From contig NZ_JADBGB010000001.1 in the NCBI RefSeq assembly GCF_015220045.1, forward strand, positions 744,001 through 808,000: a DNA stretch of 64,000 nt. The letters are read 5' to 3'. The first letter of the stretch is position 1; each line of letters starts with the position of its first letter. The notes beneath the pieces are model-generated. The model did not search any database, was not told the DNA's origin, and saw only the letters and a list, made by a program, of their open reading frames with translations. This stretch comes from Marivivens aquimaris. Its GTDB lineage: Bacteria; Pseudomonadota; Alphaproteobacteria; Rhodobacterales; Rhodobacteraceae. Shown here one piece after another: positions 1 through 20,437 of this stretch. Both the position numbers and the translations under genes were made by a program.

Positions 1-204
1 CGGGCGGAATGCCCATTGGGTGGCGATTGCGAGGAAGGCGTTCAGCGCGGGAAGATGGCATCCCCAAACCTCAAAGCTGTCCTCGGCAATCGGGGCGGAA
101 AGGGTGACGCCAAGCAGCGCAGCGTCAGCCTCGATCTCTTGCCATTCGGTCGGCGCATCTTCGAAGAGCTGCCCCGTGGCCCACGCCCGACCGATGGCTC
201 TTAG
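1..204 (-). CDS. Tail assembly chaperone frameshift extension, DUF1799-like (partial)
   Basis: This open frame overlaps the end of the tail chaperone gene and continues off the left edge. It has no ATG, GTG or TTG start between its upstream stop and the window edge, so it is not an independent gene. Entered by a -1 shift at the heptamer at 204-210, it reads on from the chaperone and contains a Trp-rich stretch with an AIATQW motif, as in the DUF1799 proteins found next to tail chaperones in Mu-like phages. In lambda the equivalent product is gpGT, made in a minor amount from gpG and needed to recruit tail tube subunits to the tape measure protein. The role is inferred by this parallel. Confidence 0.7.
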
Positions 205-521
205 TTTCCCGCTTTGGCCGAGATGATTTCCTTGGTGTATGCCTTAAAGAGGGCGTTCCGGATGTCGGGGCGGCGGATCATCGCGATGCACAAGTCGTCG
301 TCGCAGACCATCGGCTTGTCATTCTCGTCGACCAGCTCATGGAAGGTAACAACGCGGTCCTTCACATAATCGATCATCTGTGCGTCGTTCGTGAGCGTGG
401 TGTGAATGTCCGGCACGACTTGGAACGTCGTGCGGAGCATCTGTACTTCGACGCCAGTGTCGCCCGGTGTGACGATCTCGACATCGCGGGTGAAGGTCGG
501 GGTCTTATTCACTTTGAACAT
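201..521 (-). CDS. Phage tail assembly chaperone (gpG-like)
   Basis: A 106-residue protein directly downstream of the tail tube gene, the usual place of the tail assembly chaperone that binds the tape measure protein before tube polymerisation. It has no recognisable enzyme motif. The final sense codons, GGA AAC, sit inside a -1 slippery heptamer immediately before the TAA stop, which is the hallmark arrangement of G/GT-type chaperone genes. Its ATG at 521 lies 12 bases after the tail tube stop. Function is assigned from position, size and the frameshift signal, not from strong sequence identity. Confidence 0.75.
   Translation of the reverse strand: MFKVNKTPTFTRDVEIVTPGDTGVEVQMLRTTFQVVPDIHTTLTNDAQMIDYVKDRVVTFHELVDENDKPMVCDDDLCIAMIRRPDIRNALFKAYTKEIISAKAGN
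204..210 (-). other. Programmed -1 ribosomal frameshift heptamer G GGA AAC
   Basis: On the minus strand the bases read GGGAAAC in the phase G GGA AAC, followed at once by the TAA stop of the tail chaperone. This matches the X XXY YYZ rule: after slipping one base back, the P-site pairs with GGG and the A-site with AAA. The -1 frame then continues as CTA AGA into the DUF1799-like extension, which lacks its own start codon. Lambda uses the close relative GGGAAAG at the same place in gene G. Confidence 0.8.
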
Positions 522-532
522 GCGCGTGATCC

Positions 533-1465
533 TTAGGTCAGAACGAGGGTGAACTGGTCATTGCCGGTGCCCGGCAGCGGCACACCGCGCAGGGTCCAGC
601 TCACGATGCCTTCGTCGTCCTGCGGCGCGGCTGGACGCTGAAGCTGGAGCGAAGGGGTGTTGACGGTGATAATGTTCCCGGCGTCCGTTCCGTGCGTGAT
701 GACGAGCGGCGTGGTCGAGGCGTCGAGGGCGATTTGATAAGGGTTGAAGGTCGTCACCGGCAGCGCGTCGGTCTGCATTTCAACGACTTCGGCGCGGTCG
801 GTGATCCGGACCTCTTCGGTGCCCATGAGGAAGCGCGGCTTCACCTGTTGGCCCATATCGAGCGAAAAGCTCTTCATCGTGAACGCAACACCTCCGAGCG
901 TGTGGACGGGCGTGTTCGCATTGCTGGCAACAATCGGCGCGATCCACTTGGTATAGTCCGGGGAAGCGGGTGCATTCTCGGTCGGGACTTCGAAGAGGCC
1001 GGTGAAGGTCCATTCGATCATCGGAATGCCGCTGGACATGATCACGATCTTCGAAGAACCACGCGCGCCTTTCAGCACGTAGCGCGTCGATGCGATCGTG
1101 AAATGAAAGATCAGGCTCTCGTGCCCATCGGTGACCGGATTGTAGGTCACGGAGGTGTCGGCAACGATGGTCTCGGCAAGACCGGCAGCGCGGGCCAACA
1201 CGCCCCACGCAGGCGCGACACCGGCAGCGCCCGAGCCTGCGAATTCAGTCTTGAAGGTCAGCTTGGAATGCAGTCCGACAGGCAGGGTGGCCTGCGCGCC
1301 CATAAACGGGCGTTCGATGTTGCGGGCGACATCCGAGCCTTCCATCGGCGAGATCGACATGTCGATGCCCATGATTGCATTCGCACCGGCGGTCGGGTTG
1401 CCGCCTTGGCCGTAGGTGCCTTCGATGACGGCGAGCATCAGCTTCTTCTTCCACGACAGGGACAT
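533..1465 (-). CDS. Phage major tail tube protein
   Basis: A 310-residue protein between the tail terminator/small-protein genes and the tail chaperone. The beta-rich sequence without signal peptide or membrane segment, and the early motif TYGQGGNPTAGANA, are as in long siphovirus-type tail tube proteins of transposable phages related to B3 and RcapMu. It would form the inner tube through which DNA passes. No sheath gene sits between it and the connector genes, in contrast to myovirus Mu, where the sheath (gpL) precedes the tube (gpM). Its ATG at 1465 shares a base with the stop of the 46-residue gene upstream. Confidence 0.75.
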   Translation of the reverse strand: MSLSWKKKLMLAVIEGTYGQGGNPTAGANAIMGIDMSISPMEGSDVARNIERPFMGAQATLPVGLHSKLTFKTEFAGSGAAGVAPAWGVLARAAGLAETIVADTSVTYNPVTDGHESLIFHFTIASTRYVLKGARGSSKIVIMSSGIPMIEWTFTGLFEVPTENAPASPDYTKWIAPIVASNANTPVHTLGGVAFTMKSFSLDMGQQVKPRFLMGTEEVRITDRAEVVEMQTDALPVTTFNPYQIALDASTTPLVITHGTDAGNIITVNTPSLQLQRPAAPQDDEGIVSWTLRGVPLPGTGNDQFTLVLT

Positions 1466-11788: not shown

Positions 11789-12091
11789 TCAGAAGCCTGC
11801 ACTAGGGCGCTGGATGCCCGGATGTGTCGCGCGGTTCTTGGCGATCTCGATGCCACGGCCGGTAGCGACAACGACAAAGAAGCCCGCGCCGTGATCGGTC
11901 GCGGTGACGAAGCTGTTCTCGTTCAGCCACATCACGTCAGTGATGGTCTGATCGCGGGTCGAGGGAATGCCGAGAGAATAGAGCACATCCGTGAGGATCG
12001 AGATGTTGCAGGTGTACTCGGGGCAATTTTCGAGATGACGAAGGATCGCCAAACGACGGTGCTGCTGGAGCGCTTCAGCAAAGTTGCTCAT
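11789..12091 (-). CDS. Mu gp26-like winged-helix protein (VpaChn25_0724 family)
   Basis: A 100-residue protein with the family pattern HRRLAILRHLE, then LLxDVLYSLGIPSTRDQ-type sequence and a final HPGIQRPS. These small phage proteins resemble ArsR-type winged helices. It lies between gp25 and gp27, as in Mu. Overlap with the gp25 stop is 4 bases. It may help terminase or regulate late genes; the function is not established. Confidence 0.85.
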   Translation of the reverse strand: MSNFAEALQQHRRLAILRHLENCPEYTCNISILTDVLYSLGIPSTRDQTITDVMWLNENSFVTATDHGAGFFVVVATGRGIEIAKNRATHPGIQRPSAGF

Positions 12092-12429
12092 TTGGGACTC
12101 TCCATGAGGTACTGCGTCACTGTCCCAAGCCCTTTTTCCAATCGGGTCATGTTTTCTGACTGACTTCTGATCATGGTTTTGATTTCACGCACTGCGCCGC
12201 GTGTTTCGGTAATTGTGATCTGCATCTCGTGCATATCCTTCGCGGTGGGCAGCTGGGCCACGACTTCTTTGACTTGGGCGACTTCGGTCTGTGTGTCGCG
12301 CACGTCCTTTTCGACATCTTTCAGACGCTGGTCGTTGCGCTTGTTGCGTGCGGTCCAACCGGCAAATGCCATCGCGAAAATGGAAAACACGAGGCTCGCG
12401 ATCTTTGTGATAGGGTCGATCCACTCCAT
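12088..12429 (-). CDS. Mu gp25-like protein (DUF2730)
   Basis: A 113-residue protein with one N-terminal membrane segment (residues about 9-28) and a long coiled coil behind it, the DUF2730 layout. ATG at 12429 is used because the family starts with the short membrane anchor; the longer frame to 12585 overlaps the holin-like gene. Position between lysis genes and gp26 agrees with Mu. It could be a spanin-like or lysis-associated membrane protein, but this is unproven. Confidence 0.8.
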   Translation of the reverse strand: MEWIDPITKIASLVFSIFAMAFAGWTARNKRNDQRLKDVEKDVRDTQTEVAQVKEVVAQLPTAKDMHEMQITITETRGAVREIKTMIRSQSENMTRLEKGLGTVTQYLMESPK

Positions 12430-18283: not shown

Positions 18284-20437
18284 TCATTTGGCGAGGTAGG
18301 CCTCGCCAAAATTCTTCACCATCAGCTGCATCGACCTGTAATCGCTCGTGTCTTGGTACGAGTGCAGCCAGCGTTTCTGCTCACTGGTGATGTCGTCGCC
18401 AGCTTCCAGCTTGCGTTCGAGTTCGAGCGCGCGGCGGTAAAGCTCACGATTGTCGACTTCTTCGATCCGGCGCGATTTCGGCTTGGTCGCCCGGTGGCTG
18501 GCGAGATCGGCGACAATTTCATCGCGTTTCTTATCGATCTCGGGCGTCGATTGTTCGGCGGCGACGGTGCGAAACTTCTTGGCGGTGTTCGGCACCATCT
18601 TGACGACTTTGGCTTCAAGCTTCGCAGCCGGTTCAGGCGGCAGGCTAGTGGACAGCCCCTTCGCGAGTTCGGCGTTGGTCAGCGTCTTGTGCGCCTTCAA
18701 CGCGGCCTTCTCGGCGTTCAGCCAATCTTTGCGGGCGCGGGCATGAATGCGCGCCTCGTCTGCATCGAAGAACCCGACCTTCTCGCGGCACTCGGCATGT
18801 CCCAAGTATTCGCCGTTCAGGGCGTAAATGTGCAGCCCGTCGAAGAAGTCGTTGTAGTCGAAACGCGCAGCGATTTTCTTGCCGAGATGTTCGTGAAGGA
18901 AGGGTGCCCAGAAGGTATTGCCTTGGAACTTCACGGTGCCTGTCCGGCGATTGACGGTCAGGCCCTCGACACCCATCAGCCAGAGCCGCTCTTGCTCTTT
19001 GGTGGCTTTACGGATCGGGGCGGTCGCATAGCTTTCATCGAAGACGTCAGCGAATGATCTGCCCATCGCGACCTCGGAGCGACGGCCGGTGCGGGTGTTG
19101 TGCGCCTGAATTTCGTCAGCCAGTACGGCAAGGAACTCTTCAAGCGGCACGGCGCGGCTGCCGTAGTCCTCGGGCTTCGCGGTCGGGCTGTTGCCGGTAT
19201 ATGCGCCGTGGAACGCGGGATGCTTCGCAATGCGGCCGCACATATCGCGGAAAGCGCGTTCGATCGGCTTAGCCTGTCCGTGGTATGGTGTGGCCCAGTG
19301 CAGCACGACGTCGAGGGCGGTCAACAGACCGGGAATGTCGTCTTCCTTGACCTTGAAACGGAAACGGGTCGGAGCGCCGCCGGTCAGCGCTTTGTTGGCG
19401 AATTCGCGGCCGTTATCGAGCAGCACGTGATAGGGGATGCCATATTCGCGGAAGAGGTCACCGAAGGCCAATTGGACCGCATGACCGTTCGAGGTGGTGT
19501 CGATCCGCCAAGCGAGAACGCGGGCTGAATAGATGTCTTGGATCGCCACCATGTGCGGACGCTGGATGGTGTCAGGTTCGCCATTGGCGCCCGGAAAGCG
19601 GACGAAGACGTCAAATGTATGAAAGTCGGCGTTGACCGCTTCCAGAGCGTGCATCGCAGTCTTGTCACGTTCCTGCGGCGGGAACATCGCTTTCGCCGCA
19701 TCGACACCTTTACGGGCCAGAACTTGTGTGACCTTGCTGACGGTCCGGTCGAGCCAGCGACGGGTCGCCGACTTCGACGCGACGGGAATGCCGTTCGCTT
19801 CGCAATGGCGCACGATGCGGTCATAGCAGGCGGCGAAGTCCGGCTCCCCAAGGCGCAAGTAGTCGGCCTTGATCATCTCGCCGAATGTCGGATCGATCTC
19901 TGCAGCACGGCTCGGACGCTTTGCCAGCTTGTGGCGGTCTGCGAGGTAAGGAAGGCGATCTGACGGTGCGATGCCCGCAATCATGTCAAACCAGTTCCAA
20001 ATTGACCGTACACCACAGTGAAGCTGTTTCGAGGCATTCCGGACGGCTTGGTCTTTGGTTAGACCGCCGCGTTCGAGGGCTTCGACCAGTTGGATTGCCT
20101 TCAACCGCGAGGTAGCTTTCGCCTTCGCTTTATCGGCAAGCTTGTCGTAGTAGGTCCACGCTTCGGCAGCGCTCATTTGCTCTGCTTCGGCTTTTTCGGT
20201 TTGGTCCGAAGTCGCGACCAAAAGCAGGTGCTGCTGGGCGCGTTGCGGCAGGAGGGACCAGTGATACTCGAACCCACCACCGCGTCCCGACCGGCGACGC
20301 GCAAGGCCCGGCTGTGCCACCCAGTTCTGACGATCGATCATCTTAGTCAGACCGCGCTTGGTGGTCGGAATATCAGGGAGGCCCGAGGCAGCAAGGTCTG
20401 CAGCCGACCACCATTCTTTTTGTGGTGTGACTGACAT
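18284..20437 (-). CDS. MuA-type DDE transposase
   Basis: A 717-residue transposase. N-terminal Mu-type DNA-binding domain (WWSAADLAASGLPDIPTT, residues 9-26 and on) is followed by the helical end-binding region and the RNase H core. The catalytic triad is visible: Asp271 in VNADFHTF, Asp341 in LLDNGREFANK and Glu393 in KPIERAF, nearly the same positions as Mu Asp269, Asp336 and Glu392. The C-terminal Mu-transposase beta-barrel carries the RRTGTVKFQGN-type segment. The start ATG shares a base with the ParB-like gene's stop. It looks complete and active. Confidence 0.96.
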   Translation of the reverse strand: MSVTPQKEWWSAADLAASGLPDIPTTKRGLTKMIDRQNWVAQPGLARRRSGRGGGFEYHWSLLPQRAQQHLLLVATSDQTEKAEAEQMSAAEAWTYYDKLADKAKAKATSRLKAIQLVEALERGGLTKDQAVRNASKQLHCGVRSIWNWFDMIAGIAPSDRLPYLADRHKLAKRPSRAAEIDPTFGEMIKADYLRLGEPDFAACYDRIVRHCEANGIPVASKSATRRWLDRTVSKVTQVLARKGVDAAKAMFPPQERDKTAMHALEAVNADFHTFDVFVRFPGANGEPDTIQRPHMVAIQDIYSARVLAWRIDTTSNGHAVQLAFGDLFREYGIPYHVLLDNGREFANKALTGGAPTRFRFKVKEDDIPGLLTALDVVLHWATPYHGQAKPIERAFRDMCGRIAKHPAFHGAYTGNSPTAKPEDYGSRAVPLEEFLAVLADEIQAHNTRTGRRSEVAMGRSFADVFDESYATAPIRKATKEQERLWLMGVEGLTVNRRTGTVKFQGNTFWAPFLHEHLGKKIAARFDYNDFFDGLHIYALNGEYLGHAECREKVGFFDADEARIHARARKDWLNAEKAALKAHKTLTNAELAKGLSTSLPPEPAAKLEAKVVKMVPNTAKKFRTVAAEQSTPEIDKKRDEIVADLASHRATKPKSRRIEEVDNRELYRRALELERKLEAGDDITSEQKRWLHSYQDTSDYRSMQLMVKNFGEAYLAK

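Follow-up and report, generated by a model that had tools for sequence, protein, structure and literature searches.

Genes at the left end of the window

The window, that is, the whole stretch of 64,000 nucleotides analyzed, opens within the tail genes of a prophage lying on the minus strand (Table 1). The gene order is tail tube, chaperone, extension and tape measure, which places the chaperone gene between those for the tail tube and the tape measure. The product of the tail tube gene matches Phage_tube_2 [5.3e-6; 26.7 bits, slightly below the cut-off of 27] and phrog_290 [9e-24], the latter labelled minor tail protein. The short chaperone is barely recognised by PF08748 [Phage_TAC_4; 21.2 bits against a cut-off of 21.1, residues 2–28] and matches phrog_569 with an E value of 0.0021. 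The prophage also specifies a Mu-type transposase [PF02914, 2.6e-49, plus Mu DNA-binding domains], a Mu-type portal protein, an F-like protein, Gp27 and Gp36, in agreement with an earlier reading made from the sequence only, which had taken it for a transposable phage.

Table 1. Features of the tail chaperone locus and the marker gene of the prophage (window coordinates)
Feature	Position	Strand	Basis
Extension in the −1 frame (DUF1799, gpT-like), part inside the window	1..204	−	PF08809, phrog_680
TAA, zero-frame stop, intercodon position directly 3' of the heptamer	201..203	−	sequence
Short tail assembly chaperone (gpG-like), zero frame	201..521	−	ORF; 106 aa
Slippery heptamer GGGAAAC, phase G GGA AAC	204..210	−	sequence
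Predicted bulged stem-loop, possible stimulator, 16-bp stem, 5 nt past the heptamer	141..198	−	MFE −29.4 kcal/mol
Gene for the tail tube / major tail protein, immediately upstream of the chaperone gene	533..1465	−	profile matches
Mu-type transposase, marker of a transposable prophage	18284..20437	−	PF02914

On the minus strand the chaperone gene ends in GCG GGA AAC TAA. The phase of GGGAAAC suits a tandem slip into the −1 frame, and TAA abuts the heptamer; the −1 slip signal before the chaperone stop is thus confirmed as it was first observed.

The −1 frame is open from window position 243, which follows directly on a TAA at 246..244 and lies 33 nt 5' of the heptamer. The extension was followed for 135 bases beyond the window edge in a longer piece of the contig (L003, contig positions 732001–746000, in which base 12001 is window base 1 and the TAA just mentioned lies at 12246..12244). 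The whole extension comprises 112 codons (L003 12204..11866, including TGA). Ahead of the slip site its frame contains no ATG, GTG or TTG, and past it the sole start-type codon is a GTG at L003 11904, which is codon 101 of 112. The TGA (L003 11868..11866) overlaps the ATG of a tape-measure-like gene of 938 aa with a match to phrog_19487, and so the tape measure gene that the sequence-only reading had proposed to look for downstream is indeed there. That reading had also described an open, start-less, DUF1799-like frame running from upstream of the slip site to the window edge, and it was right in each respect: the extension matches PF08809 [DUF1799; 1.2e-10, 41.8 bits against a cut-off of 26] and phrog_680 [1.1e-20].

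Among phage records the extension is closest to those of RC1, RS1, ThpS-P1 and RcapMu. This match and the transposase point to an RcapMu-like transposable siphophage, from which the tail type itself is presumed.

Probable translational frameshifting

Based upon these features, a −1 programmed ribosomal frameshift very probably yields two tail chaperones from one start. That the shift occurs, how frequently, and what role it has in assembly we infer from the sequence and from phage lambda. Most ribosomes would decode GGA AAC and terminate at TAA, and their product would be the short form of 106 aa; a minority would re-pair from GGA AAC to GGG AAA and continue in the −1 frame, and the shifted product would be a fusion of about 218 aa with the DUF1799 domain at its end. 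If the two products act as G and GT do in lambda, the tape-measure protein would be coated by numerous short forms, and the few fusions would bring in tail-tube subunits; in lambda the ratio is 30:1, gpG sitting on the tape measure and T being the part that recruits tube subunits (PMC5009743, which like the other papers given by PMC number is cited in excerpt). The annotation of the locus is mended accordingly: a single gene probably specifies both chaperones, and the start-less frame with DUF1799 is real.

The 46 tRNA matches of the host include one tRNA-Gly with anticodon UCC, three with GCC and none with CCC; the same tRNA would therefore meet GGG after the slip. A lysine tRNA with anticodon CUU in the host might have accounted for the use of AAC, but this idea was rejected, since both tRNA-Lys found are UUU (all 46 matches read). 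According to the excerpt of PMC5009743, slippage in Escherichia coli is far weaker on A_AAA_AAC than on A_AAA_AAG, and therefore the rate of shifting may be low. For two chaperone genes of HK97-like phages, shifting of 6% and 7% is given in an excerpt of PMC3711429.

Conservation in related phages and prophages

Related loci were sought with the extension protein (3 of 61 genomes with a match), with the PF08809 profile (matches in 26 of 394, 18 of 385 and 30 of 398 genomes, in overlapping sets) and with an alignment of the extension against viral contigs (80 of 85 kept). Excluded were nine matches of one PF08809 search (the one with 30 of 398) and the remaining 5 of the 85 viral contigs; L004, L013, L017 and L034 were removed as duplicates ahead of counting. 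RS1 and RC1 are identical in sequence and both are counted. Fourteen named phages were sampled from 1104 phage records, besides 9 of the 13 from the first search with the extension, and SH6 was used in place of T1. At each locus we scored the in-phase XXXYYYZ closest to the zero-frame stop within 40 codons, a procedure biased toward adjacency. One of the two patterns used on the viral contigs covers extension residues 1–9 and so favours L-R/I, but not specific codons.

Conservation of the heptamer in relatives had been named beforehand as a check, and it was found: 172 of the 177 DUF1799-type loci examined have GGGAAAC or AAAAAAC, and in 154 of the 177 either heptamer is directly followed by a zero-frame stop, although the loci are mutually related and are therefore not independent trials. 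The first 163 loci scored contributed 160 (GGGAAAC in 112, AAAAAAC in 48), and the 14 further named phages 12. Clustering at 50% identity of the 175 loci for which a site was scored gave 82 clusters, 72 of them with an adjacent stop. As a control for chance we took 2674 other ORF ends (ORFs of at least 60 codons on both strands of 141 representative loci); GGGAAAC or AAAAAAC abutted the stop in none of them, and any XXXYYYZ in eight. Phase, gene order and this conservation agree with the lambda G/GT kind of −1 signal that the sequence-only reading had claimed.

Phages with G GGA AAC and an adjacent stop include RS1, RC1, Thiobacimonas phage vB_ThpS-P1, RcapMu, RcWaterboi and Pseudomonas phage Medea1, and the chaperone gene of Synechococcus phage S-CBS1 ends in A AAA AAC TGA. 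One genome of the same family, G150, has four DUF1799 matches (contigs C14, C32, C33 and C57, that is, L042, L025, L044 and L043), all with GGGAAAC and an adjacent TGA. Eight loci (L014, L020, L023, L104, L105, L115, L119 and L123) have no adjacent stop, the zero-frame stop lying 12 codons past GGGAAAC; in the same eight the second residue of the extension is arginine coded by CGN. Three phages with a DUF1799-type extension depart from the pattern: no XXXYYYZ occurs at the chaperone end in KLPN1 (L174) and Valrath (L180), and Klebsiella phage K70PH128C1 (L011) has no clear heptamer at that point. Other depositors have annotated a frameshift in RcapMu, KLPN1, Smarc2 and OzMSK, in KLPN1 as a joined CDS despite the missing heptamer.

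Alternative readings

Of the alternatives to a −1 shift, the one that survives best, very unlikely though we consider it, is that the DUF1799 frame is translated alone, with ribosomes re-initiating past TAA or using an internal or non-standard start, the heptamer being incidental. The annotation of RcapMu and of others makes the domain a gene of its own with an internal start, and the OzMSK record states that the shifted product "also has independent RBS." Moreover, between the opening of the extension frame and extension residue 50 an ATG, GTG or TTG is found in 116 of 138 representatives (none in 22), and these start codons weigh partly against a pure frameshift reading. Against this, 65 of the 138 have no ATG in the extension frame, a start of any kind lies within 60 nt of the slip site in only 37 of the 138, and the window copy has none before codon 101. 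A separate start would also leave unexplained the same in-phase heptamer in 172 of 177 loci. The earlier expectation that gene callers would miss the extension holds for the window copy but not for RcapMu, where the domain is called from an internal GTG.

Less likely still is that the joined product arises by transcriptional slippage or in the other frame (+1/−2). The relatives with AAAAAAC do present a run of six A, and Mu is reported, in the sources excerpted below, to use a −2 shift. However, the extension sits in the −1 frame, the +1/−2 frame closes after 27 codons, and GGGAAAC offers runs of three only, in a tandem phase that suits ribosomal slippage.

That a sequencing error or the decay of a prophage gene split one frame in two is hardly credible: a one-base error would likewise produce a −1 break, but the identical break, heptamer included, is shared by 172 of 177 loci, drawn from phages, viral contigs and genomes, the adjoining tail genes are open, and no uninterrupted single frame was seen in near relatives among the loci examined.

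Sequences flanking the heptamer

In the family a hairpin downstream of the heptamer is well supported by predicted folding energies. The 60 nt starting 3 nt past the heptamer have a mean z of −1.39 against dinucleotide shuffles (n=138), compared with −0.34 to +0.02 for five other 60-nt segments, and a mean z of −1.24 against synonymous resamples weighted by codon usage, compared with −0.19 for a segment further on. The first helix has at least 8 bp in 112 of the 138 representatives; the spacers are scattered, the commonest being 6 nt (24 representatives), with 0 nt in 17. For the window copy the predicted fold is suggestive. Its z against synonymous resamples is −3.0; against dinucleotide shuffles it is not significant, 22 of 200 being as stable (z −1.38, or −1.61 for the 60-nt segment).

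Pairing with the anti-Shine-Dalgarno sequence is stronger immediately upstream of the heptamer (about −3.3 vs −1.3 kcal/mol, n=138), and a Shine-Dalgarno-like tetramer occurs at −16 to −4 in 74 of 138 representatives (control shifts: 6, 9, 13, 40). A Shine-Dalgarno-like stimulator was nevertheless rejected: against synonymous resampling the mean z is −0.14, and amino-acid content largely explains the pairing. No such element was found upstream of the heptamer in the window copy.

The adjacent stop codon

In eight genes of the prophage GGA makes up 10% of the glycine codons, CTA 3.8% of those for leucine and AGA 1.7% of those for arginine; all three nonetheless occur at the site, where one frame is GGA AAC and the other CTA AGA. 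Over the chaperones and extensions of the loci with GGGAAAC, 6.9% of glycine codons are GGA. Where the second extension residue is arginine (42 representatives) it is coded by AGA or AGG in 34, whereas the long plus-strand ORFs at these loci predict 5.7 (P 2.8e-24, relatedness ignored); after clustering at 50% the figure is 18 of 22. An adjacent TGA or TAA requires AGA or AGG there. Given the excess of rare codons at the site, the adjacent stop looks to be selected across most of the DUF1799-type family. It is not essential, as one clade without the stop shows.

One might have expected the stop to be a weak one. The adjacent stop is TGA in 105 of 127 cases; in the rest of the long plus-strand ORFs TGA ends 457 of 596, and the nucleotide following the adjacent TGA is spread over G (32), T (29), C (22) and A (22). 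Since there is no sign of a weak context, and the share of TGA is not clearly above that of other genes, the idea was dropped.

Tentatively, we suggest that the stop behind GGGAAAC or AAAAAAC could be a selected part of the signal, at which slippage, aided by the hairpin, would compete with the release factor; the ratio of the two chaperones would then follow the termination capacity of the host. Termination may in this manner serve the DUF1799-type chaperones as a brake or sensor, the stop being kept behind AAC heptamers at the cost of rare codons. An excerpt of PMC4373837 reports that −1 shifting at the HIV slip site went down in a bacterial system when the next codon was a stop, that an increase in RF2 abolished it, and that stops at slip sites are natural in Rous sarcoma and barley yellow dwarf viruses. 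Against gating by termination stand the lack of enriched weak stop contexts, the lack of a clear enrichment of TGA, and the clade without the stop. Simple economy, the short form being ended at once, would explain the adjacency equally well.

Comparison across the family turns a scattered remark of annotators, that the heptamer abuts the stop, into a testable claim: in a signal common to many tailed phages and prophages, both the stop codon and the hairpin look selected.

Protein structure

AlphaFold models of the two parts from a relative are confident, with a mean pLDDT of 90 (90.2 for the extension model, mf57afce52689, from relative L091). The extension model is similar to models from other phages that are labelled "tape measure chaperone," the best E value being 1.7e-4. 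No PDB match at an E value of 0.001 or better was obtained for it, and judging from this model the DUF1799 extension may have a fold without a solved representative. The model of the relative's short chaperone likewise gave no PDB match at 0.001 or better and no solved chaperone. Neither part has a convincing relative among solved structures in the searches made. A profile of the extension (alignment A4, positions 65–119) shows a weak likeness to solved structures of ribosomal protein L20, in the C-terminal part of that protein [best E 0.0034]; this likeness was set aside, as L20 was absent from the best 50 of 139 matches in a fold search.

Comparison with known systems

The signal is of a well-known kind, the lambda G/GT-like −1 frameshift signal, and its exact layout is already in print for Burkholderia phage KL1 and Acinetobacter phage Loki, which we take not to be transposable phages. 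In KL1 gp18/gp19 it is GGGAAAC (PMC3483164, in excerpt), and in Loki gp12/gp13 AAAAAAC (PMC5313236, in excerpt), that directly precedes the chaperone stop; in both accounts, unlike here, an extra gene lies between the chaperones and the tape measure. Slip sites AAAAAAC and GGGAAAC are also named for phages phiCbK and Colossus in an excerpt of PMC3556154.

Lambda itself shifts by −1 at low level toward the end of its chaperone gene, which likewise precedes the tape measure (PMC5009743, in excerpt). Its heptamer, GGGAAAG, is in the same phase as GGGAAAC here, but AAG occupies the A site and the stop is five codons further on; lambda G also belongs to other families (phrog_42 and others) than the short chaperone of this prophage.

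The chaperone genes of Mu, D3112 and B3 lie in the same position before the tape measure but are of different families. Mu gp41 belongs to phrog_508, and the statement of the sequence-only reading that Mu is unusual at this point is borne out, its tail chaperone shift being −2 according to excerpts of PMC2628397 and PMC5009743. A Mu-type −2 shift does not fit here, as the extension lies in the −1 frame. D3112 orf42 and B3 ORF44 belong to phrog_1442. For the D3112 group T TTT TTC is predicted 43 codons before the stop in an excerpt of PMC4378225; in D3112 we find TTTTTTC 42 codons before the stop, and in B3 ORF44 no in-phase XXXYYYZ occurs but CCCTTTC, which lies 41 codons ahead of the stop. 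The tail had been called B3/RcapMu-like, of which the B3 half therefore falls.

The heptamer had further been taken to mark that tail type. It is no mark of transposable tails, since it also occurs in Tunavirus SH6, Rtp, HK639 and others with a DUF1799-type extension, which presumably are not transposable phages. In the T1-like or related phages SH6, Rtp, OzMSK, HK639 and EP23 the chaperone gene precedes the tape measure and ends in A AAA AAC with an adjacent stop; they differ from the present locus in having AAA for GGG and, in several, start codons in the extension frame.

The RcapMu half of the assignment stands. RcapMu genes 49/50 [NC_016165] and RcWaterboi genes 47/48 belong, as here, to transposable siphophages with the same gene order, their chaperone genes end in CGG GGA AAC TGA, and the DUF1799 extension follows in the −1 frame; in the RcapMu record gene 49 bears a misc_feature that reads "potential −1 frameshift." They differ in the stop, which is TGA rather than TAA, in the sequence of the extension (about 34% identity), and in that the extension is annotated from an internal GTG.
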